Shown here: positions 3,493-56,763 of the stretch, in pieces
Numbering within the stretch: the first letter of the stretch is position 1
Layout: each line of letters begins with the position of its first letter
Source of the DNA: Nitrospira sp.
Lineage (GTDB): Bacteria > Nitrospirota > Nitrospiria > Nitrospirales > Nitrospiraceae
DNA length: 64,000 nt
Assembly (NCBI GenBank): GCA_015709715.1
Contig: CP054184.1
Coordinates: 1,907,001 to 1,971,000 of the forward strand
Direction of reading: 5' to 3'
Notes under the pieces: model-generated
Database searches by the model: none
Told to the model about the DNA's origin: nothing
Seen by the model: the letters and a program-made list of their open reading frames with translations, nothing else
Position numbers and translations under genes: made by a program

Positions 3493-3556
3493 TATGCGTA
3501 ATTGCCCCTTAAATTTGGATGGTCAGCAACAAACCTTACAGCATTAGCGGCTTCCA

Positions 3557-3584
3557 ATCCTACGTGACTACTAGAGATTGTCAA
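3557..3584 (-). promoter_or_regulatory. Putative promoter and operator of the SIR2 gene
   Basis: On the minus strand, TTGACA (3584-3579) is followed after 16 bases by TAGGAT (3562-3557), a fair sigma-70 promoter. It would give a leader of about 55 bases before the SIR2 ATG. The -35 box lies inside an imperfect inverted repeat (CTAGA at 3571-3575 and TCTAG at 3596-3600, with ATTG and CAAT inside). That is where a repressor could block it. This is pattern matching only. Confidence 0.4.
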
Positions 3585-3698
3585 AGCAATCAGCTTCTAG
3601 AATAACATCCCTGATGATGTGTTGGCGGTTAAATACCATGCACCGCATCAACCCGAGCAGCCATGCGATGCTACTTTGACCATATGAATCAAGTGAAG

Positions 3699-3756
3699 CG
3701 GGGGCTGCGCCCCCGATCCCCCCGGCCGTCCGGTCCAGTGGTCCGGAACGGCCGGG
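3699..3756. repeat. Two adjacent GC-rich hairpins
   Basis: CGGGGGC (3699-3705) pairs perfectly with GCCCCCG (3709-3715) around a 3-base loop. Immediately after it, CCCGGCCGTCCGG (3721-3733) pairs with CCGGAACGGCCGGG (3743-3756), with a single bulged base. No run of T follows on either strand, so a simple terminator is unlikely. The position just beyond the rep operon would suit a replication or nicking origin, but no nick site can be shown. Confidence 0.55.
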
Positions 3757-3959
3757 CGGCCTCGTTGGGCGGAATCTTCGCGTGACCACTCTCCCCATGT
3801 TTTCAGTATCCCTGCTGTCTTCCCTGCGTCTGCAAGCAACGATCCAACAGAGCGGCGGCCAAGCTGACGCATCGCCGCCTTGAATAAGGATGGAGCATCG
3901 CTCCCTCTCACCCGTGAGGGATAGTGGACGGGTGACAGGGAGAAATTGATTAGAGCGTG

Positions 3960-4202
3960 TCACCGTCGCCCCGTGAGTCCCGCACAGTCCACACAGAGCC
4001 AGATTTCGCACGTCACATCCTTCTCCGCATAACAGAACCGCACCAACGCTCGTTCGTATTGGCAGAACTCACAGAGTCGTTCCTTCGTATGTTCAGGACA
4101 AAGCCAGGCTTTCCGCGCACGATCATACGTGGTCGCTTCCCGTCCGCAACAAGCTGGACCAAAAAGACTTGGCAGCTTCAGATCACATCGATGCCAGATC
4201 AT
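3960..4202 (-). CDS. Small cysteine-rich, probably zinc-binding protein
   Basis: The 80-residue protein has eleven cysteines, several in pairs typical of metal sites: CPEH near residue 35, CEFC near 44, then C-x7-C, C-x4-C and C-x2-C towards the end. The ATG at 4202 is preceded by AGGAGG located inside the end of the rep gene, which supports this start over the GTG two codons earlier. It is the last gene of the HTH-rep-zinc operon and is translationally coupled to rep. The function is unknown. A role in replication or DNA binding of the element is a guess from its position. Confidence 0.6.
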   Translation of the reverse strand: MIWHRCDLKLPSLFGPACCGREATTYDRARKAWLCPEHTKERLCEFCQYERALVRFCYAEKDVTCEIWLCVDCAGLTGRR

Positions 4203-4204
4203 GC

Positions 4205-4918
4205 TCACACCTCCTGATAGACGAGTCCCTTCCCCAACACCAGTTGCAGAATCGTGCCGCTAAACCATATGGCATGGCCCGAGAGCAGATCCTCCCAGGT
4301 CTTGATGAAGACGATCCGAGGGATTTCGATCTCACCCCTAATTCGTCGGTAGGCATTCCTGGTAGACCATTGGTGCCGCATTTCTTCCCACAGTCGACTA
4401 ATGGGAAAGCCAAGAGACCGTTTCCAGGACCAGCACATATTCACGTAGCCGCATTGATCCTGGACGTACTGGCTGATGACGTAGCGGCTCAGCCGGTTTC
4501 GGGAACGATGACTAGGCTGATAGGCCTTGATCCAGACGACCGGAGCCCCGTGGAGGGCTTGCCATTGCGACGACAACCATTCCTGAGAGATCCAAAATCG
4601 CCGGGCGCGTTCCCCATCCGGCACCCGCCAGGCCCAAAAGATATGGAGGACGCCATGCCCTTCTTCTGTCCGGACCTGGTAATACTCCAACTCCTGAAAC
4701 CCGAGCTGGCGTTCAATCCTCTGGCGCAGTTGCTTGTGATGGTAGGTCAACTTCTCCGCATCCCCGCCTTCCGCCGTGGACAGGGTGACCCAGAGCACTT
4801 GGAACTGATGACATTCCCAGAACCACAGCAGCGACCGCACCCGGTGATAACCGCGTTTCTGCTTTCTGGTCCATTCCCCGGCGACGGGCTCCCGCCGGAA
4901 CTCCTTCCAGCGGCTCAT
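4205..4918 (-). CDS. Replication initiator-like protein (degenerate HUH type)
   Basis: This 237-residue protein has the layout of small rolling-circle Rep proteins. A hydrophobic first motif (VLWVTLST, 41-48) is followed by a second motif with two histidines (GHGVLHIFW, 87-95, H88 and H92). A possible catalytic tyrosine motif comes third (RYVISQYVQ, 145-153, Y146 and Y151). The histidine pair is spaced H-x3-H rather than the usual H-x-H, so activity is uncertain. Its ATG overlaps the stop of the HTH gene (ATGA), and its 3' end carries the ribosome site for the next gene. I infer that it replicates or mobilises the element. A relaxase-like role is the alternative. Confidence 0.6.
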   Translation of the reverse strand: MSRWKEFRREPVAGEWTRKQKRGYHRVRSLLWFWECHQFQVLWVTLSTAEGGDAEKLTYHHKQLRQRIERQLGFQELEYYQVRTEEGHGVLHIFWAWRVPDGERARRFWISQEWLSSQWQALHGAPVVWIKAYQPSHRSRNRLSRYVISQYVQDQCGYVNMCWSWKRSLGFPISRLWEEMRHQWSTRNAYRRIRGEIEIPRIVFIKTWEDLLSGHAIWFSGTILQLVLGKGLVYQEV

Positions 4919-5124
4919 CGGGCACCTTCCGGCTGGGGAATTACCGGCCTGAGGCCGGCAGCCAGAATCCGTTCCAATTCCTCAATGGGAATCCGCACCG
5001 CTCGCACCGACGGCTTCACATAGGCAATCTGCCGCTTCAGGATGTACTTCCTGATTGTGCTTTCCTTGAGCCCTAACCGGTTCGCGGCTTCTCGAATGGT
5101 GATCAATTTTGTACTGGGGACCAT
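4915..5124 (-). CDS. Excisionase-type helix-turn-helix protein
   Basis: The 69-residue protein matches the MerR/excisionase-like HTH class. The segment ITIREAANRLGLKESTIRKYI (about residues 8-28) is the DNA-binding helix-turn-helix. It is followed by the RAVRIP-x-EELERIL wing typical of excisionase-family proteins. The ATG at 5124 has AAGGAGG eight bases upstream, whereas the earlier TTG at 5151 has none. It is the first gene of a three-gene operon with Rep and the Cys-rich protein. It diverges from the zinc-finger/integrase operon, so it may direct excision, control both operons, or both. Confidence 0.8.
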   Translation of the reverse strand: MVPSTKLITIREAANRLGLKESTIRKYILKRQIAYVKPSVRAVRIPIEELERILAAGLRPVIPQPEGAR

Positions 5125-5156
5125 CGGGCACCTCCTTAAAGAATGGTTCAAAAATG

Positions 5157-5184
5157 ATCACGGCTGATATTGTTGAGCCGTGAT
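5157..5184. promoter_or_regulatory. Inverted repeat in the divergent control region of the element
   Basis: ATCACGGCT (5157-5165) and AGCCGTGAT (5176-5184) form a perfect 9-bp inverted repeat separated by 10 bases. It lies between the HTH start (5124) and a TTGACA box for the opposite operon. The 19-base centre-to-centre spacing puts both half sites on nearly the same DNA face, as expected for a dimeric regulator. The adjacent HTH protein is the obvious candidate binder. Confidence 0.5.
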
Positions 5185-5189
5185 TCTTC

Positions 5190-5220
5190 TTGACACCCAT
5201 TACCAATGCAGAGGTACACT
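5190..5220 (+). promoter_or_regulatory. Putative promoter of the zinc-finger/integrase operon
   Basis: TTGACA (5190-5195) is followed after 19 bases by TACACT (5215-5220). The -35 box is perfect, and the spacer is 2 bases longer than ideal. The box begins 6 bases after the inverted repeat 5157-5184, so a bound regulator would contact or exclude RNA polymerase. Confidence 0.35.
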
Positions 5221-5326
5221 TGCCAAACACATTCCGGTGAAATCGGCCCTTTCGCACGACACATTTTCCGGTGGTGTTGGGATCAAGAAACTCAGGAGGG
5301 GTCGGCGTGAAAAAGGAGCCGAAGGC

Positions 5327-5992
5327 ATGAGCGCACAGGGGCACGCGGAACAGGACTTCCAAGTTGAGTATGAGAAGGCGATGGAGCGGATCCAGACGAT
5401 GCCGGATGGCGCCGTGGGGTGGGTGCTCCGGTTTTTACAGACCGATCTGGAGGCTTTGACGCCCACGGAATGGACGCTGGTAGCGTTTGAGGTCGCGGCC
5501 TTTGTCGATGAGACGGGGGAGCGCTATGGCGGGATGGTGGCCCCGGAGAGTGGCTGGAGCGTGGAGGGCGTGCCTCACGCGAAGAACTATCAGACGATAC
5601 CCAGTCGCAAAGAAGCCCTGGACATTCAGGCTGCCGTCCTGGAGCACTTGGAGCTCTATTGGCACGAAGGCTACACCGAGTTCACGTTTCCGCAGATGAC
5701 GCTGGTCGTGGTGTCGCCGGGTGAGGGCTCTGACGAGGCGGGTACGGTCATCGTGAGTGCGAAACGCAAGGCGAAGGAGTTTGAATACCGGTTTGTCCAC
5801 CTCCTGGCCCACACGGGGGACTACATCCGGCGTTGTCCGGAATGCGCCACGATCTTTTTCGCGATCAGACGCGACCAGCTGTACTGTCAGCCCCGCTGTC
5901 AAAACCGCGTCGCGGCGAGAAAGTGGCGCGAGGCTCAGAAGACCGGAGAGCGAAAGGAGAGCCGCCGTGGCAAGAAAAGCGGGAAAGGATAG
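5327..5992 (+). CDS. Element protein with a C-terminal Cys4 zinc finger
   Basis: The 221-residue protein has an acidic, mostly helical first part (1-150). Near the end it has a zinc-binding site: C170-x2-C173-x13-C187-x3-C191 with the flank QNRVAARKWRE. This resembles the CGNR-type finger seen in small regulators and element-borne proteins. The tail is very basic (KKSGKG), suggesting nucleic-acid contact. The ATG at 5327 has GGAG nine bases upstream, while the frame upstream of it lacks a ribosome site. The 3' end overlaps the integrase start by 26 bp, so both are expressed together. It may regulate or assist integration, but its exact role is unknown. Confidence 0.7.
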   Translation: MSAQGHAEQDFQVEYEKAMERIQTMPDGAVGWVLRFLQTDLEALTPTEWTLVAFEVAAFVDETGERYGGMVAPESGWSVEGVPHAKNYQTIPSRKEALDIQAAVLEHLELYWHEGYTEFTFPQMTLVVVSPGEGSDEAGTVIVSAKRKAKEFEYRFVHLLAHTGDYIRRCPECATIFFAIRRDQLYCQPRCQNRVAARKWREAQKTGERKESRRGKKSGKG

Positions 5993-7181
5993 AGGGATTA
6001 CCCAGAGGAAGGGCCGCAAAGGCTGGTGGGTACGTCTGTATGACAACGGGCGGGAGCGCTGGCACCGCTGTGATACCAAATCACAGGCCAAGGCATTGTA
6101 CGGACGGCTGAAGGCCGATATTCGGGAAGGGACCTATTTCCCTGAAAAATTCGCCCCTCGAAAAGACATCACGCTCCGGGCTTGGATCAAACGCTACCTC
6201 GAAGGAACTGTGAACCGAAACAAAGCTGGCGAAGTACTCTACGGGCGGCGCTGGTCCCTGCTTATCGGGAGTCGCCTAGTCACCCAGATTACGGTCGATG
6301 ATCTTCGACGAATTCAAGCCAGAATGCGCGCCAAGATGAAGGTGAATACGAAGGAACCGCAACGGCTCTGGGCGGATGCCACGATCAACAGACATTTTGC
6401 CTTCCTTCGCCATGTGCTGATGCTAGCCGTCAAAGATGACAAACTGACCAAGAACCCGGTCTCCAGCCTTAAGTTCTTTCCTGAAGCCAACAGAACGCGG
6501 TTCCTGACGAGCGAGGAACTTGACCGACTGAAGGGCGTAATGCCCCCGGATGACTGGAAATTGGTCGCCTTCGCCGTCGAGACCGGGTTGAGACGTGGCG
6601 AGCAGTTCTCGCTTCGCTGGAACCAGATTGATCTGGAAAACGAGATCTTGACCCTGCCCATGCCAAAGGGAGGCAAAACCCGGCATGTGCCCTTAAGTGA
6701 AGGAGCCAAGACCATTCTGAGGTCATTTGACTCCTTTCTTCGGTCGGCTTGGGTGTTCCCAGGCTTAAAGGATGTTGCCCACCCCATGGACAGCCGGGCT
6801 TTCCTTCGGCGTTCCTTTGAACCTGGCCTGAGGCGAGCGGGGATCACCGGTGCCTGTTGGCATTCACTCCGACACACCGCAGCCAGCCGACGTGTCATGG
6901 CAGGCGTCGATCTCGTATCGGTGAAGGAGATCCTCGGGCACCGTGACATTGAGACGACTATGCGGTACGCACACCTAGCCCCAGGACATCTTCGAGAAGC
7001 CGTGAATCGAGGCAGTCTGAGTGGAACCGTGACCAAAACCGTGACCGAGGAAGAGGAAGAACCTGAGGAAGAGATACAACCTGTTGATTCTATGGTGCGC
7101 CCGGAGGGACTTGAACCCCCAACCCTCGGATCCGAAGTCCGATGCTCTATCCAATTGAGCTACGGGCGCACGGCGGTATAA
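5967..7181 (+). CDS. Tyrosine recombinase / phage-type integrase
   Basis: The 404-residue protein has an N-terminal arm-binding part, a core-binding SAM-like domain (about 65-165) and a catalytic domain (170-345). The full catalytic set is visible: R210 in ETGLRRGE, K237, H299 and R302 in HSLRH, H325 in LGHRD and the nucleophile Y334 in MRYAHL. I chose the GTG at 5967, preceded by AAAGGAGA, rather than upstream codons out of context. From residue 376 the frame is the antisense translation of the tRNA-Arg gene and ends ten bases beyond it. The last 29 residues are therefore supplied by the chromosome at the insertion site. It catalyses site-specific integration and excision at that tRNA. Confidence 0.93.
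   Translation: MARKAGKDRGITQRKGRKGWWVRLYDNGRERWHRCDTKSQAKALYGRLKADIREGTYFPEKFAPRKDITLRAWIKRYLEGTVNRNKAGEVLYGRRWSLLIGSRLVTQITVDDLRRIQARMRAKMKVNTKEPQRLWADATINRHFAFLRHVLMLAVKDDKLTKNPVSSLKFFPEANRTRFLTSEELDRLKGVMPPDDWKLVAFAVETGLRRGEQFSLRWNQIDLENEILTLPMPKGGKTRHVPLSEGAKTILRSFDSFLRSAWVFPGLKDVAHPMDSRAFLRRSFEPGLRRAGITGACWHSLRHTAASRRVMAGVDLVSVKEILGHRDIETTMRYAHLAPGHLREAVNRGSLSGTVTKTVTEEEEEPEEEIQPVDSMVRPEGLEPPTLGSEVRCSIQLSYGRTAV
7093..7169 (-). tRNA. tRNA-Arg (anticodon TCG)
   Basis: Read on the minus strand, the acceptor stem GCGCCCG/CGGGCGC, D arm, anticodon stem TCGGA/TCCGA with loop CTTCGGA (anticodon TCG), TTCAAGT loop and an encoded CCA are all present (77 nt). It reads CGA/CGN codons. It begins 34 bases downstream of the aroK stop on the same strand and may be cotranscribed. 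Its 3' end is the integration site of the element, and the integrase frame covers it in antisense. Confidence 0.95.
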
Positions 7182-42758: not shown

Positions 42759-45263
42759 TTATCCCTCCGCCTTCTCGACGAGAATCTTGAAGTGTCGGGC
42801 GTCCGCCTCCAGCGGCCCCTCCTCCAGGATCTTGTGGCCGTCGTTTCGCAAACTCATCGGCACATTGCGGATGGGCTCTCCGGCGTCCAGCCACACTTCA
42901 AGCCGTTCGCCGTCCTCCATCATTTCGAGTTTCAATTTGGTCTTCACATAATTCATCGGGCAGGCCACGCCGCGCAGATCATAGACCGGCGCCTTGGGGG
43001 CCTCTGGCACAGCCTCAGGTGCGGCAGCCTTCGGCGTCGCGGGCGGGAGGGCCTCCTCCTTGACCTGCGTCAGCTTGAGATCCTTGCCCATTTGCTCCGT
43101 TGCGGCCCGGCAGACCTCGAGGAATCGCTTCGCGAAACTCATCCGTTCCGTCGCCTCGCCGACCGTCGCGTCCTTGGAGCCGAGATCGCCGACTTGCTGT
43201 CCGAGGTTCATGTAGGTCGCCGGCACGATGCCCTTGCTCGCGAGGCGCAGATCGAACTCCTGGAATGTCTCAGCATCTGTCGCCGGATCGAGGCCTTCCG
43301 TCACCAAGAGGGCCTTGGCCGCCGCCAGCACGGCGCGATAGGACTTATTCACGGAGAGGGCGTACTGATGCTTCTCAACGAGGAGCTTGGCTTGGTATAG
43401 CTCTTGATCCGCTTCCAACATGCGGTCGTCGATCATTTCCAGCGCCCCGCCCGCGCATTCACCAGGACCCAAGTCTTCTAACACGAACTCTGCCTCGCCC
43501 TCCCAGTCGTAGTAGTAAGTCGGATCCTGCTCGTACGCGGGCACGATGGTATAGGGAATGAGTTCGTCCTTGAGTGCGCCTTTCCCCACGCGAGTCACAA
43601 ACGTCTGCAGCGACTCGCCCTGCTTTCGGTCCCGCCGATAGACCTCAACGAGATGGCGAATCGCCGCGGGGACGCTCTTGGCGGGCAGCTTGACGGTCAA
43701 TTGCCCGATCTTGGGCGTGCCGTCCACATGCCCCCCCAGATGCAGTTCGTAATGCGGCGCCGTATGTTCGCCGAGCCGTTTCCCCACACCGTGCAGCCCG
43801 ATCGTCGCGATATGGTGCTGGGCGCAGGAATTGTGACAACCACTGATCTTGACGCTGACGTCCCGCAGGTCTTCCGGCACCTGGCCGGCGGGAAAGACTT
43901 CCGCCAAGGCCCGCGCCATGCCCTTGGACGAGGTGATGCCGAGACCGCAGGTATCGGTCCCGGGACAGGCGATAATATCCTCCACCAGCTCGGCGCCCGG
44001 ATCTCCCAGGCCATGCGTCACGAGTTCGTCATAGAACTCCTTCAGGCGCTCTTCCGGGATCCAGCGAATCACCACGTTCTGGTTGATCGTCGTGCGGATG
44101 TTGCCGTTGGAGTACCGCTCGGCGAGGTCAGCCACCACCCACATCTGGTCGGTCGTGAGATCACCCATCGGGAGCTTGATGGCTGCCGTCGCAAACCCCG
44201 CCTGGCGTTGCGGTACGACGTTGGTGCGCTTCCAGGCCTGAAAGGCCGGCGCTTCCCCGCTCAACAGGGCTGCGCCATTTCCGTTGCCCTGGCCGTTACC
44301 CTGTTCGTTCCCCATGGAAGACAGGGTGGCCTTGATCGGCATGAGCAACGGCGGGTCGTCGGCATAGTCCAACAATTTGATCGGCTCATGAGTCGGCACT
44401 GCATACCCCATGGCTGCATAGGCCGCTTCCCATCGCCGTTTGAATTCGTCGAAGCCGAGCTTCTCGATGACGAACTTCATGCGCGCCTTGTTCCGATTTT
44501 TCCGATTCCCCAAGGTGTCGAACACTTTGATCACGGCCTCGATGGACGGCAACAATTCATCCATGGGGGTGAATTCTCGAAGCACCTGCGCCATGCGCGG
44601 CGTGGAACCCAATCCCCCGCCGGCCACCATCCGAAATCCAATCACACCATCACCACGCTTCACGGCAAGTAGGCCGATGTCGTGGATGGGCGTCAAGGCA
44701 CAGTCCTGGCGGCAGCCTGAGAGGGCGATCTTGAATTTCCTCGGCAGGCTCTGGTTGAGCGGGTTGCGCAGGAGGTGATAAGCCACCGTCTTGGCATAGG
44801 GCGTCACGTCAAAGACTTCGCCGTGGCAGACACCGGCCAAGTGACAGGCTGTCACATTGCGCACCGTATTCGCGCAGGCCTCCCGGGTCGTAAGTCCGAC
44901 GGAGGCCAACTGACGCATCATCTCGGGCACATGTTTCAGCTCGACGAAATGCAGTTGAATATCCTGCCGCGTGGTCACATGGCCGACCCCGGTCGCATAC
45001 TGTTCGGCCAATTCGGCTACCCGCCGCAGTTGATTGGCGGTCAACCCTCCAAACGGAATCTTGATGCGAAACATCTGCACCCCCGGCTGGCGCTGGCCGT
45101 AGATACCATATTGAAGCCGGAACGGCTTGAAGATATCCGGAGACAATTCGCCCGACAGGACGCGCCGGGCTTCTGTTTCAAAGGTCTCTATCTCTTCGAC
45201 GATGTTCGACGGAATGGGCGCCGCCTTGATCGCCGGGCGGAGGGCCACAGGGTTGGGGCTCAT
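42759..45263 (-). CDS. Sulfite/nitrite-reductase-type enzyme fused to HEPN-like and TusA-like domains
   Basis: Counting from the upstream ATG at 45269 (836 residues), 1-570 form two ferredoxin-type sulfite/nitrite reductase halves. Each half has a complete cysteine set: C142, C148, C186, C190 and C435, C441, C478, C482. Normally only one half binds the siroheme-linked [4Fe-4S] cluster. Residues 610-730 are helical and HEPN-like (YQAKLLVEKHQYALSVNKSYRAVLAAAKALL). Residues 760-836 are TusA-like with the sulfur-carrying CPMN motif (C770). I prefer the ATG at 45263, whose ribosome-site spacing is better. The context with cysH and cysDN indicates assimilatory sulfite reduction. Confidence 0.88.
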   Translation of the reverse strand: MSPNPVALRPAIKAAPIPSNIVEEIETFETEARRVLSGELSPDIFKPFRLQYGIYGQRQPGVQMFRIKIPFGGLTANQLRRVAELAEQYATGVGHVTTRQDIQLHFVELKHVPEMMRQLASVGLTTREACANTVRNVTACHLAGVCHGEVFDVTPYAKTVAYHLLRNPLNQSLPRKFKIALSGCRQDCALTPIHDIGLLAVKRGDGVIGFRMVAGGGLGSTPRMAQVLREFTPMDELLPSIEAVIKVFDTLGNRKNRNKARMKFVIEKLGFDEFKRRWEAAYAAMGYAVPTHEPIKLLDYADDPPLLMPIKATLSSMGNEQGNGQGNGNGAALLSGEAPAFQAWKRTNVVPQRQAGFATAAIKLPMGDLTTDQMWVVADLAERYSNGNIRTTINQNVVIRWIPEERLKEFYDELVTHGLGDPGAELVEDIIACPGTDTCGLGITSSKGMARALAEVFPAGQVPEDLRDVSVKISGCHNSCAQHHIATIGLHGVGKRLGEHTAPHYELHLGGHVDGTPKIGQLTVKLPAKSVPAAIRHLVEVYRRDRKQGESLQTFVTRVGKGALKDELIPYTIVPAYEQDPTYYYDWEGEAEFVLEDLGPGECAGGALEMIDDRMLEADQELYQAKLLVEKHQYALSVNKSYRAVLAAAKALLVTEGLDPATDAETFQEFDLRLASKGIVPATYMNLGQQVGDLGSKDATVGEATERMSFAKRFLEVCRAATEQMGKDLKLTQVKEEALPPATPKAAAPEAVPEAPKAPVYDLRGVACPMNYVKTKLKLEMMEDGERLEVWLDAGEPIRNVPMSLRNDGHKILEEGPLEADARHFKILVEKAEG

Positions 45264-45318
45264 GATCATAACCTCGTCGGTTTGAGGGTAATGTGCGCTC
45301 CTGACGCAAGCAGCCGCG

Positions 45319-47003: not shown

Positions 47004-47087
47004 TTTTTTATTTTGACCGCTTATTGTGTTCCGACCAGCGACGTGATCGTGGTCGGCACGATATTTTTGTTTGTAGGACAGACCGGA

Positions 47088-49022
47088 GTGGCCTCACAGC
47101 TCATTCAGATTACCCTTCCTGACGGAACTCGAAAACAAGTGCCAACGGGATGCACGGTCCGCGACGCCCTCGTGGCGCCGGAGGGACGGCTCGATGCCAA
47201 GGTGTTCGCCGCCAAGGTCAATGGCGAACCCGTGGACCTCTCTCGCCCTCTCAGCGGTGACGCAACGCTTGAGCCCCTGACCTTCGATTCAGCGGAAGGC
47301 CGCGAGGTCTATCGCCATAGCAGCACCCATATCATGGCCCAAGCGGTCAAAGAAGTGTTCCCGACCGCTCAGCTCACGATCGGCCCCGCGCTGGAGGACG
47401 GATTCTATTACGACTTTGCCTTCGATCGCCCCTTTACGCCGGAAGACCTCGAGAAGATCGAAACCAAGGCGAGGGAGATCATGAAGCGCGGCTTGGTCGT
47501 CACCAGGTCCGAGTTGTCGAAACAGGACGCCATCACGTTCTTCAAGGAACGGGGCGAACACTACAAGGTCGAACTGATCCAAGGCTTTGACGAGCAGGCG
47601 CCCATTTCTCTCTACCGCCAGGGCGACTTTGTCGACCTCTGTCGCGGTCCCCACCTGCCCACCACCGGCCATGTGGGCGCGTTCAAGCTCCTGTCCACCG
47701 GCGGCGCCTATTGGAGAGGTGATGAGCGGAATCCCATGCTGCAGCGGGTCTATGGCACTTCCTTCCCGACCCAGAAGGAATTGGATGCCCACCTCGCCAA
47801 GCTGGAAGAGATCAAGCGCCGGGACCATCGCAAGATCGGCAAGGAACTGGACCTGATTACGATCCAGGACGACATCGGCCCTGGCTTGGTCCTGTGGCAC
47901 CCGAAGGGCTCGCTGATCCGATTGCTGATCGAAAATTTCTGGCGCGAACAGCATCTGAAGGACGGCTACGAACTGGTGTATTCGCCGCACGTCGCCAGGC
48001 TGGACCTGTGGAAGACCAGCGGCCATGTCGACTACTACCGGGAAAACATGTTTGCGGCCATGAAGGTGGAAGGCAGTGAGTACCAACTCAAGCCCATGAA
48101 CTGCCCCTTCCACATCATGATCTATAAATCGCACCTGCGCAGTTATCGAGACTTGCCCATTCGCTACGGCGAATTGGGCACCGTCTATCGCTATGAACGG
48201 ACCGGTGTCCTGCATGGCCTCTTGCGCGTGCGCGGTTTTACCCAAGACGATGCGCACCTCTTCTGCCGTCCCGACCAAATCGAAGCCGAAGTCAGCCGGG
48301 TATTGGACTTTACGTTCTTCATTCTGCGCACCTTTGGGTTTACCGAGTTCGAAGTGTATCTGTCGACCAGACCCGAGAAATCGGTCGGATCCGATGAGAA
48401 CTGGGCGCTCGCGACCGCAGCCCTCGAATCAGCCCTCAAGGGGCGCCAAGTCGCCTATCAGCTGGATCCCGGCGAAGGGGTGTTCTACGGACCGAAGATC
48501 GACATCAAGATCAAGGACGTGCTCGGACGATCCTGGCAATGTTCGACCGTGCAGGTGGACTTCAACAACCCCGAGCGCTTCAAGTTGGCCTATACCGGCG
48601 AAGACGGCAAGCACCATCAGCCGATCATGATCCATCGTGCGCTCATGGGCTCCATCGAGCGTTTCTTCGGGATCCTCATCGAGCATTATGCCGGCGCTTT
48701 CCCCACGTGGCTCGCCCCGGTCCAAGCCGTGGTCCTCACCATCACCGACAAGCAACAGGAGTTCGCCGCGCGCGTGGTCTCCGAACTCAAGGGACAGGGC
48801 TTCCGGGTCGAAGCGGATCTGCGCAACGAAAAGATCGGGCTCAAGATTCGCGAGGCCGAAAAAAACAAGATTCCCTATATGCTCGTAGTCGGTGACAAGG
48901 AAGTGCAGAGCGGCACGGTCGCAGTCCGCGGGCGCAGCGGCGCAAACCATGGCAGCATGCCGGTCGAGGCGTTGGTCGCGTTGCTCCGCCAGGACATGAA
49001 TCAATCGTTACATGAACGGTAA
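47088..49022 (+). CDS. thrS: Threonine-tRNA ligase
   Basis: ThrRS charges tRNA-Thr. The protein (about 644 residues from the GTG at 47088) has the N-terminal TGS domain (ITLPDGTRKQVPTGCTVRDAL) and the editing domain (HSSTHIMAQAVKEVFPTAQLTIGP, with the metal-site His pair). The class II core has motif 2 RYGELGTVYRYERTGVLHGLLRVRGFTQDDAHLFC and the zinc ligands in MNCPFH. The anticodon-binding domain is at the end. The open frame extends back to 47013, but those residues do not fit the family. The thrS-infC-rpmI-rplT order is the classical translation operon. Confidence 0.93.
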   Translation: MASQLIQITLPDGTRKQVPTGCTVRDALVAPEGRLDAKVFAAKVNGEPVDLSRPLSGDATLEPLTFDSAEGREVYRHSSTHIMAQAVKEVFPTAQLTIGPALEDGFYYDFAFDRPFTPEDLEKIETKAREIMKRGLVVTRSELSKQDAITFFKERGEHYKVELIQGFDEQAPISLYRQGDFVDLCRGPHLPTTGHVGAFKLLSTGGAYWRGDERNPMLQRVYGTSFPTQKELDAHLAKLEEIKRRDHRKIGKELDLITIQDDIGPGLVLWHPKGSLIRLLIENFWREQHLKDGYELVYSPHVARLDLWKTSGHVDYYRENMFAAMKVEGSEYQLKPMNCPFHIMIYKSHLRSYRDLPIRYGELGTVYRYERTGVLHGLLRVRGFTQDDAHLFCRPDQIEAEVSRVLDFTFFILRTFGFTEFEVYLSTRPEKSVGSDENWALATAALESALKGRQVAYQLDPGEGVFYGPKIDIKIKDVLGRSWQCSTVQVDFNNPERFKLAYTGEDGKHHQPIMIHRALMGSIERFFGILIEHYAGAFPTWLAPVQAVVLTITDKQQEFAARVVSELKGQGFRVEADLRNEKIGLKIREAEKNKIPYMLVVGDKEVQSGTVAVRGRSGANHGSMPVEALVALLRQDMNQSLHER

Positions 49023-49045
49023 CCCACTTACAAACGAGGTGCCCT

Positions 49046-49552
49046 ATCGTCCCTAAATTGCGTGTAAACCGGGAAATCAGGATTCGGGAAGTTCGTGTGA
49101 TCGGTCCGGAAGGCGAGCAGCTAGGAATATTGCCGACCGTCGAGGCCCTCAATAAGGCACAGGAACAGGGCTACGATCTTGTTGAAGTCGCTCCGACCTC
49201 CCAGCCGCCGGTGTGCCGCATCATGGATTATGGGAAGTACAAGTACGAGCTCAGCAAGAAAGATCATCAGAGCCGGCGCCATCAAAAATCCACCCAGGTC
49301 AAGGAGATCAAACTGCGGCCCAGGACCGACAAGCATGATCTCGAGATCAAGATCCGCCAGATCAAGGAGTTCCTGGCGGGCGGCAACAAGACCAAGGTGA
49401 CCCTGACCTACCGCGGGCGAGAAATGGCGAATCAAGAGATGGGCCGGACCATGATGGCAAACGTCATACAGCAGTGTACGGAATCAGGTACGGTCGAATT
49501 CGCCCCCCGGATGGAAGGCCGCAGCCTCATTATGATTTTGGCTCCCAAGTAA
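49046..49552 (+). CDS. infC: Translation initiation factor IF-3, probable ATC start
   Basis: IF-3 prevents premature subunit joining and checks the initiator tRNA. From the ATC at 49046 the product has 168 residues: the N-terminal [24 protein letters not shown], a linker rich in charged residues, and the C-terminal [41 protein letters not shown]. No ATG or GTG lies at the right place. GAGGTG sits five bases before this in-frame ATC, while the first regular alternative is a TTG at 49058 with poorer spacing. Non-canonical starts let IF-3 control its own synthesis in E. coli. Confidence 0.9.
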
Positions 49553-49583
49553 TGCGCGACTTGCACAAGGAAGGATTGAACCC

Positions 49584-49775
49584 ATGAAACTCAAAACTCA
49601 CAGCGGCGCGAAAAAGCGATTTCGACGGACCGGAACCGGCAAACTCGTTCGACAGAAGGCCGGGCGGCGCCATTTGTTGACCGGCAAGTCCAGAGATCAC
49701 AAGAAACGGTTGAGCGGCCTGACACCGGTCCCCAAGACGTCGGTCCCTGCGCTGAACCGCTTGCTTCCGAAGTAA
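49584..49775 (+). CDS. rpmI: 50S ribosomal protein L35
   Basis: The 63-residue basic protein has the family pattern [48 protein letters not shown] lies eight to ten bases upstream of its ATG. It sits between infC and rplT as in most bacteria, where L20 regulates the operon by binding its leader. The leader structure was not analysed here. Confidence 0.95.
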
Positions 49776-49823
49776 GAATGTTTTATCGTGCCGTGACTAA
49801 GGATCTGAAAGGAGTAGCGACCG

Positions 49824-50192
49824 ATGCCTCGTACAAAAGGTGGATTTAAAACACGACAGCGGCGAAAGAAGCGCCTGAAACTGGCGAAAGGCCAATATGG
49901 GGCAAAGAGTCGACTGTTCCGCACGGCGACGGAGTCCGTCGATAAAGGGCAGGCCTATGCGTATGCCGGACGGAAGAGTCGCAAGCGTGATTTTCGTCGG
50001 CTCTGGATCGCCCGTATCAGCGCCGCCGTTCGAGCCCATGGCCTCGCCTATGGCCGATTCATGAATGCGCTGAAGAAAGCCAACATCCTGCTGGACAGGA
50101 AGATCCTGTCGGATATGGCGATCAAAGATATGGCGGGGTTTGAGAAGCTGATCGGAGTGGCCAAGGAACAGCTCGCGGCGCCCGCCGCGTAA
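49824..50192 (+). CDS. rplT: 50S ribosomal protein L20
   Basis: The 122-residue protein has the long basic N-terminal helix ([29 protein letters not shown]), followed by the globular part with [21 protein letters not shown]. It is an early 50S assembly protein. It ends the plus-strand operon and converges with pheT 60 bp away. A weak stem (CGGGAGCTC with GAGTTCCCG, about 50224-50255) occupies the gap without a T-run. Confidence 0.95.
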
Positions 50193-50252: not shown

Positions 50253-51971
50253 TCACAGACTTTCCAGCAGTTGATCGATTTCCAGCTCCAACGCGACGAC
50301 CGGCACACCGATCTGCCACTGCTCCAGCACTTCCGGGTGCACCTCTCCCAGCAATCCGATCGCGCGACCACCTGAGACGATTTTTCCCGCCCGACCGTCG
50401 AGAAACGAAGGGTGTTCGACCGGCTCCAGGGTGAACGAGCGGTCCAGATAATACATCAGGAGATCGAGACAGGAATGGATTTCAGAGAAGGCGGCTCCCG
50501 CATGGGCGATCACCGCCCCCAACGCCGTCACGGTCCTGGAACCGATCTCGCTCTGCGCGTCGGGCACCGCCACCTCCCCGACCTCGAACATGCGATGCGG
50601 ATAAAAGGCTCGGCTGGAATTGGCCTCGACCTGCAACAGAGATGGGACCACCCATTGACGGAGGCAGGAATAGCTGAGCGACATGACGTTATCCACCTCG
50701 ACGACCTTCGACCAGGCCGTTCCCTCCAGCCGCATCCTGCTGCAAAAATCCTGGCGCGACCCCATGATGTTGGAAATGATCTCCTGGAACTCCATTCCCA
50801 CCATGAGGTGACGGACGCGGTCGGCCATCTGTTCCACACGGGATAATCCACCGACCGTGAATTGAGAAGGCATCACGGGAGCGAACCGCGCGTACCCTTC
50901 ACTGATCGCCACATCTTCCACCACATCGACCGTATGCAGCAGATCATGTCGATAAGGCGGCACCTGCACCGTCACCTGCTTGCCGGCCGACTTGACCCCA
51001 TACCCGTAGGACTTGAGCGACGCCGATACATCCTTCGCCCCCATCGCCTCTCCCAATGCCGACTCAATGGCCGCCAGTGGTATGGTTCGCGGTTGGCCGA
51101 AATCGAGCGGTGTGCTCCAGCGCTTCCCGAAGACCGTCTTCACCGGTGCGTGAATTTCCACCGGCGTGATGAGCGCGCCACGGTCGGCCAAGTTTGCAGC
51201 AAAGATATTCAGGGCCAACGTCACCATCGGCAGGTCCGTGCCCGTCACCTCGACAAACAGCTGGTCATCCCCAACCTGCACCTCACCCACCTCGCGGCTG
51301 TTGATGATCGGCGGGAACGACAAGACCTGTCCCGTTGCGTCACGCAGCACGGGAAGACGATCATGGCCTCCGACGATCCCGCCGTACTCGACGCCTTTCG
51401 GATGGACCATCAAAATCTCCCGCAAGGTCATCACCGTCTCCATACCCAACGGCGTGAACCGGATCTCATCCGGTTTGACCAGGTCGTAGGTCACCGGAAA
51501 CTCGATACGGGCAAGGCGGTACAGGCCGATCGAGACCGTACGCCGCTTGCGGCCAAAAATATCGGCCAGTTTTTCCTGCGTCTGGATCAACTGCGCCAAA
51601 CCGGCCGCCGTCACACGGTACCCCGCCACAGCACAGGCCGCGATATACGGACGCACCTCCTCCATGCCCGGCGCCACGATGACGGTTCCCGCCGTCCGTT
51701 TCGGCTTTTTGAAAAAGGGATAGTTCAGGGGAGCGCCCCGTTGTTTGATGCGGATCTGCCGCGCGATACCCTCACAACACCAAAGGTCGGGGCGGTTGCT
51801 GTCCTGCAACTCGATCCGCAACTCGCCGGTCTCGGCATTGTGCCCCTTCAACTCGCCCTTCACCAGCATCAGCCACTGTTCCAATTGATCGAGCGGAATT
51901 CGACTCGAGGGCTCGCCGTAGCCGGCAATCAAGGCTTCGAGATCATCACGTTGAAGGGAAATGGTCGGCAT
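50253..51971 (-). CDS. pheT: Phenylalanine-tRNA ligase beta subunit, archaeal/eukaryotic type
   Basis: PheT with PheS charges tRNA-Phe. At 572 residues it is far shorter than the ordinary bacterial subunit (about 790-800). It lacks the bacterial N-terminal tRNA-binding OB domain and C-terminal anticodon-binding domain. Order: core B1-like part (PTISLQRDDLEALIAG, DSNRPDLWCCEGIARQIR), B3/B4 editing-type domain (about 85-270), B5 (TPLDFGQPRTIPLAAIESALG) and class-II-like core (RFAPVMPSQFTVGGLSRVEQMADRVRHLMVGMEFQEIISNIM). This fits archaeal and spirochaete enzymes. It is 11 bp after pheS. Confidence 0.9.
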   Translation of the reverse strand: MPTISLQRDDLEALIAGYGEPSSRIPLDQLEQWLMLVKGELKGHNAETGELRIELQDSNRPDLWCCEGIARQIRIKQRGAPLNYPFFKKPKRTAGTVIVAPGMEEVRPYIAACAVAGYRVTAAGLAQLIQTQEKLADIFGRKRRTVSIGLYRLARIEFPVTYDLVKPDEIRFTPLGMETVMTLREILMVHPKGVEYGGIVGGHDRLPVLRDATGQVLSFPPIINSREVGEVQVGDDQLFVEVTGTDLPMVTLALNIFAANLADRGALITPVEIHAPVKTVFGKRWSTPLDFGQPRTIPLAAIESALGEAMGAKDVSASLKSYGYGVKSAGKQVTVQVPPYRHDLLHTVDVVEDVAISEGYARFAPVMPSQFTVGGLSRVEQMADRVRHLMVGMEFQEIISNIMGSRQDFCSRMRLEGTAWSKVVEVDNVMSLSYSCLRQWVVPSLLQVEANSSRAFYPHRMFEVGEVAVPDAQSEIGSRTVTALGAVIAHAGAAFSEIHSCLDLLMYYLDRSFTLEPVEHPSFLDGRAGKIVSGGRAIGLLGEVHPEVLEQWQIGVPVVALELEIDQLLESL

Positions 51972-51982
51972 CGCGCGTAATC

Positions 51983-53527
51983 CTAAAAGTTCCCCCGCAT
52001 GGTGCGGACGAAATCCAAATCGGCCGAGAAGAGGTCACGGATATCATGAATGCCGAGCGCCACCATCGCCATCCGATCCAAACCCAGCCCCCAGGCAATG
52101 ACCGGCACGGACACACCGAGGGGAGTCGTCACCTCGGGACGGAACAGCCCGGCGCCGCCCAGCTCCATCCAGCCCAACTTGGGATGGCGCACGTGCATTT
52201 CGACCGAGGGTTCGGTGAAGGGGAAATAGGCCGGAAGAAACTTCACTTCCTTCGCCTGGGCCACTTCCCGCGCAAAGAGGTTCAGCAGGCCGAGGAGCGT
52301 CCGGAAGTTGATGTCGGCGCCTAACACAATGCCCTCAACTTGGAAGAAGTCGGTCGCATGGGTGGCATCGACCTGGTCATACCGAAAGCAACGGGCGATG
52401 GAGAAATATTTTCCTGGGACCGACGCGCCGCCGGCCAACGCGCGCGCCGACACGGCCGTGCCTTGACTCCGCAACACCAACCGTTTTGCGCGTTCCACAT
52501 CGAATTGATAGCCCCATCCGGTCGATCCGGCTCCGGTCCCCTTCTCGTGCGCCTGCACCACCCGCGTCAAGTAGGGCTCGGCAATCGACCGCGCGTGGGT
52601 CGGTTCTTTCACGAAATACACATCGTGAATATCGCGGGCCGGATGGAACTGGGGCATGAACAACGCGTCCATGTTCCAGAATTCCGTCTCCACCAACGTA
52701 CCGCGCATTTCCTGAAAGCCCATGCTGACCAACTTGAGTTTTACGAGGTCGAGGAACTCGCGGTACGGATGCCGCTTCCCCGCCGCGATTCTCGGAGCGC
52801 GCAGACTGATCGTATATTTGCGGAACCGCTTGGTGCGCCACGTACCGTCTTTCAGCAGTTCCGGCGTCAACTGCGAGACCTCTTCCGCCACCCCCACCTG
52901 CGACAGGCGTTGCGCCACTTCCTGCCCTGCCGGCGTCAGCAGGAACGTTCGGGTCACACGATCGTCGATCCGAAACGGCTCGCGGGTGTTACCGCGCTTG
53001 ACCGCATGTTGTTGCAACACGCTCCGCAAGGGTTCGGCCACGCTCTGCAGCTCGCGCGCCCCTCCCCGCAACTCCTGCAAGAGGGCCCGCATGGATTCCG
53101 CCGTGGTACTGTTGCGGCCGGTACTTTCGATACAGCCGCCCTGCACGATGAGGATCGCCCCTTCTTTCTTGAGCGTCCCCACCGCCTTACTGACCTCCGA
53201 GGCTTCCAACCCTTCTTGCGCCTGAATATCCTGGATCGTGAGCCGCTTGCCTGTCCGTCCCGCCTCCTTGGCGGTCGAGAGCACACGCTCGATGGGCGCG
53301 TACTTGTCGAAATACACTTCACCGGTCGGAGTAAGAGAAGCGATGGAGGCCACAGTCTCGGAATGGACCGCGATAAGCGACTTGGCCAGCAGCCACTCGA
53401 TCGCCATGCTCAGCTGGGAAGGCTCCAAGCCGGTCGCCGGCACCAGATGATCGAGCGTCGCAGGCCGATCCTGCTGCGGCAGCATCGCCAGCAACACTTT
53501 GCTTTCGAGGGGATGAAGGTTATCCAT
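51983..53527 (-). CDS. pheS: Phenylalanine-tRNA ligase alpha subunit, archaeal/eukaryotic type
   Basis: The protein has about 514 residues; bacterial PheS has about 330-350. Residues 1-200 are winged-helix domains (LLAMLPQQDRPATLDHLVPATGL, LTIQDIQAQEGLEASEVSKAVGTLKKEGAILI), typical of archaeal and eukaryotic subunits and contacting tRNA. The catalytic core has motif 2 GKYFSIARCFRYDQVDATHATDFFQVEG and motif 3 GWMELGGAGLFRPEVTTPLG...WGLGLDRMAM. The ATG at 53527 is chosen over a TTG two codons earlier. It follows rpe by 27 bp, in one operon with fmt and rsmB. Confidence 0.9.
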   Translation of the reverse strand: MDNLHPLESKVLLAMLPQQDRPATLDHLVPATGLEPSQLSMAIEWLLAKSLIAVHSETVASIASLTPTGEVYFDKYAPIERVLSTAKEAGRTGKRLTIQDIQAQEGLEASEVSKAVGTLKKEGAILIVQGGCIESTGRNSTTAESMRALLQELRGGARELQSVAEPLRSVLQQHAVKRGNTREPFRIDDRVTRTFLLTPAGQEVAQRLSQVGVAEEVSQLTPELLKDGTWRTKRFRKYTISLRAPRIAAGKRHPYREFLDLVKLKLVSMGFQEMRGTLVETEFWNMDALFMPQFHPARDIHDVYFVKEPTHARSIAEPYLTRVVQAHEKGTGAGSTGWGYQFDVERAKRLVLRSQGTAVSARALAGGASVPGKYFSIARCFRYDQVDATHATDFFQVEGIVLGADINFRTLLGLLNLFAREVAQAKEVKFLPAYFPFTEPSVEMHVRHPKLGWMELGGAGLFRPEVTTPLGVSVPVIAWGLGLDRMAMVALGIHDIRDLFSADLDFVRTMRGNF

Positions 53528-53554
53528 GAACAAGGGGATCGTCCGGCGGCTCGC

Positions 53555-54259
53555 TTACCGTCGAGCGCCAACACTCCTAGTGGTACGCTCGCCCGGTTGG
53601 GCCCCGGCCCGTAAGGCCGTAATCGCCGCGGCATAGTCCGGCGTTGAAAACACGGCAGAGCCTGCCACCAACACATCCGCTCCGGCAGCCACGACGGCCC
53701 CTGCGTTCTCCGGCTTCACCCCTCCGTCCACCTCAAGGAGGGCGCTGCTGCCGCTGCGATCAATCATCGCCCGGACCTCAGCGATCTTCTGCAGCGAGGA
53801 GGGGATGAACTGTTGGCCGCCGAATCCCGGATTCACCGACATGATGAGGATAAGGTCGGCATCGCGCACGATCTCCGACAACCACACCGCTGGCGTAGCG
53901 GGATTCAGTGTGACGCCCGCCTTGACGCCGCGCTCCTTGATGGATTGCACCGTCCGATGCAAATGCGGGCAGGCCTCCACATGCACGGTCAAGTAATCCG
54001 CTCCCGCTTCCGCAAATTCCTGAATGAAGGCGTCGGGGTTCGCCATCATGAGGTGGACATCGAGCGGCAACGTGGTCACTTTCCGCAGCGACTCGACGAT
54101 CGGCGGGCCGACGGTCAGGTTCGGCACGAAGTGCCCGTCCATCACGTCGACATGCAGCCAGTCGGCGCCATCTTGCTCCACCCGCGCGACTTCCTCGGCC
54201 AAGCGGGCGAAGTCGGCAGAGAGAATGGACGGAGCGATGCGGACGGTTTTCGCGGTCAC
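53555..54259 (-). CDS. rpe: Ribulose-phosphate 3-epimerase
   Basis: Rpe interconverts ribulose-5-phosphate and xylulose-5-phosphate in the pentose phosphate or Calvin cycle. The 234-residue TIM barrel has APSILSADFARL (about 8-19), HVDVMDGHFVPNLTVGP (metal-binding His and Asp), LDVHLMM, MSVNPGFGGQQFIP and EVDGGVKPENA. The GTG start overlaps the rsmB stop, so translation is coupled. Confidence 0.95.
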   Translation of the reverse strand: MTAKTVRIAPSILSADFARLAEEVARVEQDGADWLHVDVMDGHFVPNLTVGPPIVESLRKVTTLPLDVHLMMANPDAFIQEFAEAGADYLTVHVEACPHLHRTVQSIKERGVKAGVTLNPATPAVWLSEIVRDADLILIMSVNPGFGGQQFIPSSLQKIAEVRAMIDRSGSSALLEVDGGVKPENAGAVVAAGADVLVAGSAVFSTPDYAAAITALRAGAQPGERTTRSVGARR

Positions 54260-55701
54260 TCTACACTCCTCCGCAACCGTGCGGCAAAAAACGCATCCAT
54301 GCTGTTCATATTGGCCATCGTGGACAGGTCACCGCGGGGGGTCACGAACGGCAGACCGGTTGGAGGCACCCACGGCGCGACCGACTCGCGCTGAAAGTCG
54401 CGATGCGACTGACAAAATTCGTCGATGATCGATTCGGTTTCTTCCGGTTCGACCGAGCAGGTACTATAGACCAACACCCCATCAGGCCGCAATAGACGGC
54501 TCGTCGCCTCCAACAGCCGCCGCTGCGTTTCGCGATGCCGCGCAATTGTCTCCGCCTGCTTATACCACTTCCCTTCGGGATGACGACGCAACACACCGAG
54601 TCCGCTGCAGGGCGCGTCGAGCAAGATGCGATCGAACGGTCGGCCCCGAGCGGCAATGGAACGCAGACTCGGCCACGTGCTCGTCGCTGCCGTCGAATCC
54701 CCGCCAGGCAGGTTCGCCACATCGCCGACGACCGGCCTCACGATCGTCACGCCGAGGCGGCGGCAGTTGTCCATTACCCGCGTCAGCCGCGCGGCAGCCC
54801 GGTCCACCGCGACGATCTCACCCTGATTCTTCATCAATGCCGCCAGATGCGTCGCCTTGCCGCCCGGCGCGGCGCAGGCATCCAGCACCAACTGCCCCGG
54901 CTGGACATCCAACAGCGGCGGCACCAATTGCGCCGCCTCGTCCTCCACATAAAACTGCCCGTCCGCGTACCCTGGAAGATCGGTGATCACTCCGCCACGA
55001 ACCAGCTGAAGCCCGACCGGACTGATCGCCGTGGGGACGGCCTCGATCGCCTCGGCAACCCACGTCTCCAACAAGGCCGATCGGGACATCCGCAAGGTGT
55101 TGACCCGACAAGTCAGCGGCGGCGATTCAAGCGAGGCGCGGCAAAGGGCTTCTGCGGCGCTCCCCCCCCTTGCACGACACCAACGCTCGACCAACCAGGT
55201 GGGGCAGGAATACCGGACGGCCAACGCCTCGATGGGATTCTTGGCAAGGTCAGGCCACGGCGGTTCGGGCGTACGCAACAACGTCCGCAGCACCGCGTTC
55301 ACGAAGCCGCTCCAATCGCGTCCCAGCCGTCGCGCCTGTCCCTTCATCAGCCCGACCGACTCATTGACGGCGGCATTGTCGGGAACCCGATCCAGGCACA
55401 ACGCCTGATAGGCCCCCAAACGCAAGATCGTCTGCACCGCAAGAGGAAGGCGCGCGAAGGGCCGATCCGTCAGCAGGCCAAGCCGCCAGTCCAGCGTCCC
55501 ACGATACCGTAAACACCCGCGAACCAATTCCACCATGAAGGCGCGATCACGCAGATCCAGCCCGTCCCTGGCCGCAACCTGGTCGAAAAGATCCTCAGGC
55601 AGCAATCCTGCTTTCTCAATCGCCAAGAGCGCCTTCAAGGCCGCACGCCGCCCGGAGGAGACAGACTGGCCGCGTCCATGCGGCTGTTGGTTGGAGGTCA
55701 T
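54256..55701 (-). CDS. rsmB: 16S rRNA (cytosine-967-C5)-methyltransferase
   Basis: RsmB methylates C967 of 16S rRNA with S-adenosylmethionine. The 481-residue protein has a NusB-like N-terminal domain (about 16-150). The Rossmann methyltransferase part has VLDACAAPGGKATHLAAL (about 277-294), LLDAPCSGLGVLRRHPEGKW with one catalytic Cys (about 362) and YSTCSVEPEETESI with the other (about 419). It lies 36 bp downstream of fmt. Confidence 0.94.
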   Translation of the reverse strand: MTSNQQPHGRGQSVSSGRRAALKALLAIEKAGLLPEDLFDQVAARDGLDLRDRAFMVELVRGCLRYRGTLDWRLGLLTDRPFARLPLAVQTILRLGAYQALCLDRVPDNAAVNESVGLMKGQARRLGRDWSGFVNAVLRTLLRTPEPPWPDLAKNPIEALAVRYSCPTWLVERWCRARGGSAAEALCRASLESPPLTCRVNTLRMSRSALLETWVAEAIEAVPTAISPVGLQLVRGGVITDLPGYADGQFYVEDEAAQLVPPLLDVQPGQLVLDACAAPGGKATHLAALMKNQGEIVAVDRAAARLTRVMDNCRRLGVTIVRPVVGDVANLPGGDSTAATSTWPSLRSIAARGRPFDRILLDAPCSGLGVLRRHPEGKWYKQAETIARHRETQRRLLEATSRLLRPDGVLVYSTCSVEPEETESIIDEFCQSHRDFQRESVAPWVPPTGLPFVTPRGDLSTMANMNSMDAFFAARLRRSVE

Positions 55702-55737: not shown

Positions 55738-56676
55738 CTAAGGCCCGGCGCCGAACCGCGCACCGTCGGCCAAACGGTGCCCCGTCAGGTATTGCATAGC
55801 CGTCATGCGGCGACTATTGGAAGGCTGAATCTCTATGAGGTGAAGCGTACCCTGGCCGGTCGCAACCTCAATGCGGTCCTTGGTGACCTTTGTCACAGTG
55901 CCGGGCTCCGCGACCTGAGCATTGTCGGCCACGGCAACCCGCCACAACACCCACCGGTCGCCTCCCTTCCAGGTGTAGGCCCCTGGCCAAGGCGAAAGCC
56001 CTCGAACACGATTAGCGATTTCCGTGGCGGGAAGACGCCAATCGATCAGGCCATCTTCCTTCTTGAGAATGGGCGCCATGGTGGCCTGACTGTGGTCCTG
56101 CGGCTGCGGGGTCAAGGTTCCGGCCTTCAGCCGTCGAAGCGTTTCCACCAGCAGCCGCCCACCGACCTCGGCTAACCGCGGCGCCAGAGTTCCCGCCGTG
56201 TCGTCCGAACGGATTGCCACCCGTTCCTGCAACAGCATCGCTCCGGTGTCCATGCCTTCGTCCATCAACATGGTCGTGATGCCGGTTTCCTGCTCGCCTC
56301 GGATGATCGCCCACTGAATCGGCCCCGCGCCGCGATATTTCGGCAGGAGCGAACCGTGGACATTGATGCAGCCGCGAGGAGGCAGGCTTAGGACCACAGG
56401 CGGCAAAATCCGACCAAACGCCGCCACCGCAATGACGTCCGGATTCCATTGCCGCAAGGCCTCCAGGAAGGCAGGGTCCTTCATTTTGAGCGGCTGCAAC
56501 AGGGGGATGCCCTCGCGTTGGCACAGCACCTTCACGGGCGACGGCACGACGTCCTGTCCTCGCCCCTTCGGACGATCCGGTTGCGTCACCACCCCGACGA
56601 CGTGGTCGTCCGATTTGAGCAGCGCCTCCAGTGACGGCACGGCGAACTCCGGCGTTCCCATGAATACGATCCGCAT
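55738..56676 (-). CDS. fmt: Methionyl-tRNA formyltransferase
   Basis: Fmt formylates the initiator Met-tRNA. The 312-residue protein has MRIVFMGTPEFAVPSLEALL, the folate-binding NVHGSLLPKYRGAGPIQWAI (about 110-129) with the catalytic N-H-D set, GITTMLMDEGMDTGAML, and the C-terminal tRNA-binding OB domain. It begins the minus-strand operon fmt-rsmB-rpe-pheS-pheT. The initiator tRNA it acts on is encoded just 87 bp away on the other strand. Confidence 0.95.
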   Translation of the reverse strand: MRIVFMGTPEFAVPSLEALLKSDDHVVGVVTQPDRPKGRGQDVVPSPVKVLCQREGIPLLQPLKMKDPAFLEALRQWNPDVIAVAAFGRILPPVVLSLPPRGCINVHGSLLPKYRGAGPIQWAIIRGEQETGITTMLMDEGMDTGAMLLQERVAIRSDDTAGTLAPRLAEVGGRLLVETLRRLKAGTLTPQPQDHSQATMAPILKKEDGLIDWRLPATEIANRVRGLSPWPGAYTWKGGDRWVLWRVAVADNAQVAEPGTVTKVTKDRIEVATGQGTLHLIEIQPSNSRRMTAMQYLTGHRLADGARFGAGP

Positions 56677-56763
56677 GGTCACGCTTTATCATTCTCCTGC
56701 CATGATTGCAATTGTGGCTCCCGCTTCCTTGACTCTCGTTTCGCATGCCTGCTACTATCCGCC

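Follow-up and report, generated by a model that had tools for sequence, protein, structure and literature searches.

A sole PheRS of archaeal/eukaryotic type in Nitrospira, probably an old ancestral replacement beside rplT

Replacement of PheRS, the synthetase of tRNA-Phe, by an archaeal-type enzyme is a kind of event already known from spirochaetes. Archaeal-type PheRS has been described in Spirochaeta, Borrelia and Treponema (Andam and Gogarten 2011, PMC3191353); according to that account, an archaeal-type pair took the place of the native bacterial PheRS, with both subunits exchanged and an alpha subunit of about 513-528 aa. CPR bacteria, with archaeal-type TyrRS and TrpRS, likewise hold archaeal-derived synthetases (PMC5370408).

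The pair described here belongs to the genome of a Nitrospira, a bacterium of nitrifying type, and lies in a stretch of 64,000 nucleotides of contig CP054184.1, analysed as a whole and called the window below. It resembles the spirochaete case in that an archaeal-type pair stands in place of both bacterial subunits, a likeness drawn from the published description; it differs in phylum and in that, in Nitrospirota, a conserved placement beside rplT was seen and tRNA-Phe was examined. The pheS and pheT genes of the window are the sole PheRS of the genome and of archaeal/eukaryotic type, and they most probably result from an old ancestral displacement beside rplT, with loss of the bacterial pheST and vertical inheritance since, a reading to which we give a probability of about 0.88. 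No report of archaeal-type PheRS in Nitrospirota or Leptospirillum was found in the open-licence literature, and as far as that literature shows, the new elements are the extent of the trait in Nitrospirota, the conserved rplT placement and the confrontation of an archaeal-type enzyme with a bacterial tRNA that varies at position 20.

Both open reading frames lie where the initial annotation had placed them (Table 1), with a PheT of 572 aa and, from the alternative ATG start at 53527, a PheS of 514 aa. The archaeal class that it had assigned to them is confirmed by profile searches. PheS scores 579.8 bits (cut-off 350) over residues 4-514 against NF003210, the NCBIfam model of the archaeal-type alpha subunit, which is also matched by 34 of 34 relatives. 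PheT scores 467.9 bits (cut-off 282.65) against TIGR00471 (pheT_arch), from residue 1 to 569 of 572 and across profile positions 1-551 of 551, and merely 111 bits against TIGR00472 (pheT_bact, cut-off 402.65), too little for a bacterial-type beta subunit. Chance is not at issue as a source of these ORF and family assignments, and for both subunits the best sequence matches among solved structures are eukaryotic or archaeal PheRS.

Table 1. Features of the pheST locus, in window coordinates
Feature	Position	Strand	Remarks
thrS-infC-rpmI-rplT run	47013-50192	+	NCBIfam; convergent with pheT
rplT	49824-50192	+	NCBIfam; last gene of the thrS-infC-rpmI-rplT run
pheT	50253-51971	-	archaeal/eukaryotic-type PheRS beta subunit; 572 aa
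pheS	51983-53533	-	archaeal/eukaryotic-type PheRS alpha subunit; 516 aa from TTG 53533
rpe	53555-54259	-	NCBIfam; directly upstream of pheS
rsmB	54256-55701	-	NCBIfam
fmt	55738-56682	-	NCBIfam

A short beta subunit without the B2 OB-fold and the C-terminal anticodon-binding domain is a trait of the archaeal/eukaryotic type, and the 572-aa PheT displays it: the domain search returned B5 and CLM only, and neither of the two missing domains, both looked for, was found. In 31 relatives B5 and CLM are likewise seen, some with B1, B3_4 or tRNA-synt_2d in addition, and no OB-fold or C-terminal anticodon-binding model was found among them. A separate observation concerns the bacterial-type enzymes of the phylum. 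In most of these families, the match of PheT to pheT_bact begins only near position 156 and the ORFs are near 690 aa, as if B2 were absent (loci L043-L054 and L076-L081; families f15, f21, f23, f25, f26, f33 and others); families f14 and f17 have a full-length bacterial-type PheT. Loss of B2 has been reported for CPR bacteria (PMC5370408).

The structure model of PheT (mean pLDDT 90) agrees closely with P. horikoshii 2cxi (TMt 0.94, rmsd 2.1). Its four best fold-search rows are human PheRS-beta, 8s8b and the P. vivax and P. horikoshii PheRS-beta, with all bacterial PheT ranking lower, and its N-terminal part is 35% identical to P. horikoshii PheT. The two top rows for PheS are eukaryotic, with bacterial PheS close behind, in a comparison mostly limited to residues 247-516. 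Alpha subunits of the archaeal/eukaryotic type begin with three winged-helix-like domains; in the window's PheS, helix-strand units are predicted over residues 8-137 and the Pfam winged-helix match stays below threshold. The structural comparison is good over 247-516 only, and the VIA-align list, in which no row covers the N-terminal 219 residues, says nothing on the fold there. The catalytic residues, F383 and R384 in motif 2 and R487 in motif 3, do not vary across 34 PheS proteins. The editing site of P. horikoshii PheT, in the B3/4 region, is presumably made up of L202, S211, D/E234 and T236, to which L209, S218, E241 and T243 of the window's PheT align; across 31 PheT sequences S218 and T243 never vary, while L209 and E241 are conserved in at least 90%. 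Judged by these aligned residues, PheT appears to have an editing region of B3/4 type. Domain plan and editing-site residues are common to the window's enzyme and the archaeal and eukaryotic cytosolic PheRS (P. horikoshii 2cxi, human 3l4g). The enzyme would form an alpha2-beta2 tetramer, charge its own bacterial-type tRNA-Phe and edit Tyr-tRNA-Phe.

The genes fmt-rsmB-rpe-pheS-pheT form a tight run, with an overlap of 4 bp between rsmB and rpe, a gap of 27 bp between rpe and pheS (counted from the pheS ATG) and 11 bp between pheS and pheT, and 60 bp separate the converging ends of pheT and rplT. The NCBIfam annotation agrees with the linkage to fmt-rsmB-rpe, and with the strand opposite to thrS-infC-rpmI-rplT, that had been claimed at the outset. 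The further claim, that the pair sits at the bacterial enzyme's own locus, holds as far as adjacency goes: the pair adjoins the old slot but lies on the opposite strand, outside the slot itself. Promoter and terminator scans around the pheST run gave nothing convincing, no more than in shuffles. Elsewhere in the window, translations read by eye indicate a SIR2-like ORF at 1723-3492 and a tyrosine-recombinase-like ORF at 5757-7181 that overlaps a tRNA-Arg gene (7093-7169, minus strand); on this reading, 1723-7181 has the look of an integrated element that may carry defence genes. Also by eye, 42759-45269 encodes an 836-aa sulfite/nitrite-reductase-like protein with an apparent TusA-like C-terminal domain, an unusual fusion.

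Profile searches of the whole genome (complete, 4,156,062 bp, 99.97% complete) returned one PheS core and one pheT_arch. No bacterial pheT above the pheT_bact cut-off was found in it; the other pheT_bact match, of 29 bits over profile positions 42-123, belongs to a different gene. A bacterial pheST elsewhere in the genome is rejected, as the complete-genome search, a check already proposed in the initial annotation, yielded no bacterial pair. The loss of bacterial pheST inferred there is supported by a complete genome with neither bacterial pheS nor bacterial pheT. A non-canonical paralogue with another job, comparable to other PheS-like ligases, would fit the weak resemblance of PheS to SepRS, PylRS and the SrmL model, but these are the only PheS and PheT of the genome and their function is essential; together with NF003210 and TIGR00471 scores far above cut-off, against 88 bits for SrmL (cut-off 300), this makes such a paralogue extremely improbable.

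The archaeal type extends well beyond this genome. Among 295 genomes of the phylum, 164 are above the pheT_arch cut-off and 119 above that of pheT_bact. In the window's class, a strong pheT_arch match (E 1.7e-75 or better) is present in 111 of 113 sampled genomes and a bacterial PheT in 0 of 113; the two members with neither type (G222 and G234) are incomplete, at 93% and 95%. The PheS of N. defluvii is 89% identical to that of the window, and families f12, f13, f16, f19, f20 and f37 of the phylum also have the archaeal type. Among the best 80 of 589 confirmed contig stretches, the type also appears outside Nitrospirota, under the labels Bacillota, Myxococcota, Latescibacteria and WOR-3, and no stretch is titled as an archaeon. 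A scan of viral contigs for archaeal-type PheRS gave no match and one of plasmids six, all partial. Spirochaetes, initially cited as the best known bacterial holders, are a known case (PMC3191353), but other bacterial phyla hold the type too. Its distribution among them is patchy: the phylum of G296 has it in 9 of 146 genomes, and that of G303 in 13 of 148.

Patchiness across phyla could also be read as a history without transfer, in which the bacterial ancestor had both PheRS types and different lineages then lost one or the other. No genome among the 295 of the phylum is listed above both cut-offs, however, and the only one with both types reads as contamination, so that we consider such a history very improbable. 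The genome in question, a Troglogloeales MAG (G311, alone in this among 17 genomes of loci), has bacterial thrS-infC-rplT-pheST on contig C94 (L247) besides its archaeal-type pair; this contig has separate copies of thrS, infC and rplT, whose identity is low (46.6% for thrS), for which reason it is probably contamination. Two further observations concern labels and types. Locus L150, labelled Nitrospinota, has the PheRS and gene order of Nitrospirales and is probably misbinned or mislabelled, since it falls inside Nitrospirales in both trees. Loci L178 and L180-L184, from large genomes in the phylum of G303, carry a second, divergent archaeal/eukaryotic-type PheRS: the PheT of L178, L180 and L181 is only 28-33% identical to that of the window. 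In the PheT tree these three stand on the eukaryotic side, L180 and L181 also in the PheS tree.

The PheT tree comprises 57 rows and 565 columns, with one archaeal row (P. horikoshii, N-terminal part), one eukaryotic row and no spirochaete. The PheS tree has 59 rows, 10 of them bacterial-type PheS; relative to the PheT tree, seven loci without usable PheS were dropped and the two non-bacterial PheT rows are inapplicable. The window groups with its own family and order (100/98 for PheT, 100/99 for PheS), and a very long branch with support of 100/100 parts bacterial from archaeal-type PheS, so that the window's PheS does not fall among bacterial subunits, the outcome that would have counted against the initial reading. 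The horizontal replacement proposed in the initial annotation is supported by the tree and by the sole copy, but would date back to an ancestor of the class or further still, rather than to this organism. The donor was probably archaeal, though the immediate source could be another bacterium, the PheT tree holding one archaeal sequence only. One or a few entries of archaeal-type PheRS into bacteria might have been followed by its spread from phylum to phylum, as is suggested by its patchy occurrence and by the grouping of 52 bacterial PheT rows from several phyla (Nitrospirota, Myxococcota, Caldifarciminota, a Bacillota-labelled record and Latescibacterota) apart from P. horikoshii (99/96). 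A single archaeal row, however, cannot place archaea outside the bacterial group, and the tree gives no firm order of phyla; a bacterial donor has, in our estimate, somewhat under an even chance.

An old date for the replacement fits the composition of the genes. The GC of pheS and pheT matches that of the neighbours, as does GC3 (0.77 in pheS and 0.75 in pheT, against 0.65-0.77), which is expected of an old transfer; recent acquisition is rejected on the strength of this GC3 and of the class-wide presence of the archaeal type. The placement is conserved as well. Among 95 distinct archaeal-type loci, rplT is convergent with pheT in 63, of which 62 are from Nitrospirota, with a median rplT-pheT gap of 113 bp (44 within 500 bp, the largest 6.9 kb); one locus (L067, f37) has rplT, pheS and pheT all pointing the same way, which is the bacterial order, and in the remaining 31 rplT is absent from the piece of DNA examined. 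Of the 62 loci in which rpe and pheS are both seen, 58 have rpe within 400 bp of pheS and on its strand. The bacterial-type families of the phylum keep rplT, pheS and pheT in this order on one strand, and the only non-Nitrospirota locus with rplT nearby is L150. In L162, pheS and pheT are about 1 kb apart, unlike in the other Nitrospirales loci seen. In the free PheT tree, family f20 is not joined with the other archaeal-type Nitrospirota; a single clade is not rejected (p-AU 0.144, which is no proof of one), and the convergent placement that f20 shares with the window's class speaks for a single event in a common ancestor. On this reading, an archaeal-type pheST pair was taken up by an ancestor common to the class and, probably, to several other families of the phylum. 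The pair would have come to adjoin rplT as part of the run fmt-rsmB-rpe-pheST, with loss of the bacterial pheST usually found after rplT, and would have been inherited vertically ever since.

The partner of the enzyme has remained bacterial. A review lists G34, A35, A36 and A73 as universal identity bases for PheRS, to which U20 and U59 are added in E. coli and G20 in yeast and A. pernix (PMC9976931). The organism's own tRNA-Phe, found via the full Rfam tRNA list, has A73, a GAA anticodon, U20 and U59, without the archaeal and yeast G20, which argues that the swap brought no archaeal tRNA identity along. This sets the enzyme apart from archaeal and eukaryotic PheRS, as its host is bacterial and it works beside a tRNA-Phe with U20, in contrast to the G20 used in yeast and A. 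pernix (PMC9976931), and also from CPR TyrRS and TrpRS, since archaeal tRNA identity, as described for CPR, appears there too (PMC5370408). In the phylum genomes, where tRNA-Phe was found by a sequence pattern and counts were read by eye, 96 of the 144 archaeal-type genomes listed have U20 and 48 have C20, with no G20 in the rows seen, and all 83 bacterial-type genomes listed have U20 and none C20. By family, C20 occurs in 5 of 17 archaeal-type and 0 of 22 bacterial-type families (Fisher 0.011), a modest contrast in which the 22 bacterial-type families were entered by hand and related genomes are not independent. The pattern matched in all but 29 of the 295 genomes, and a second pass covered 80 chosen genomes, 72 of them bacterial-type. 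G268, with a U20 and a C20 copy, was counted as C20; G016, G034 and G101, with partial PheT matches, were counted as bacterial-type by family, and G222 and G234, with no PheT above cut-off, as archaeal-type by family. U20 and C20 both occur within single genera, which implies several switches.

The restriction of C20 to archaeal-type genomes hints that the swap relaxed an identity base. Tentatively, and with the odds rather against it, the synthetase swap might have freed base 20, changed repeatedly from U to C and never to G in the rows seen, with an enzyme re-fitted to the bacterial tRNA and a tRNA that then drifted from the bacterial enzyme. If true, this drift would lock the swap in.

Since pheS is one of 24 universal marker genes in use (PMC3636077, PMC4918981), an undetected change of type can bend deep trees. 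Archaeal-type PheRS in bacteria moves from a curiosity of spirochaetes to a trait fixed in the large and well-studied class of Nitrospira and scattered over other bacterial phyla. With much the same bacterial tRNA served by two distantly related PheRS types, this one phylum offers a natural experiment on tRNA-Phe identity.
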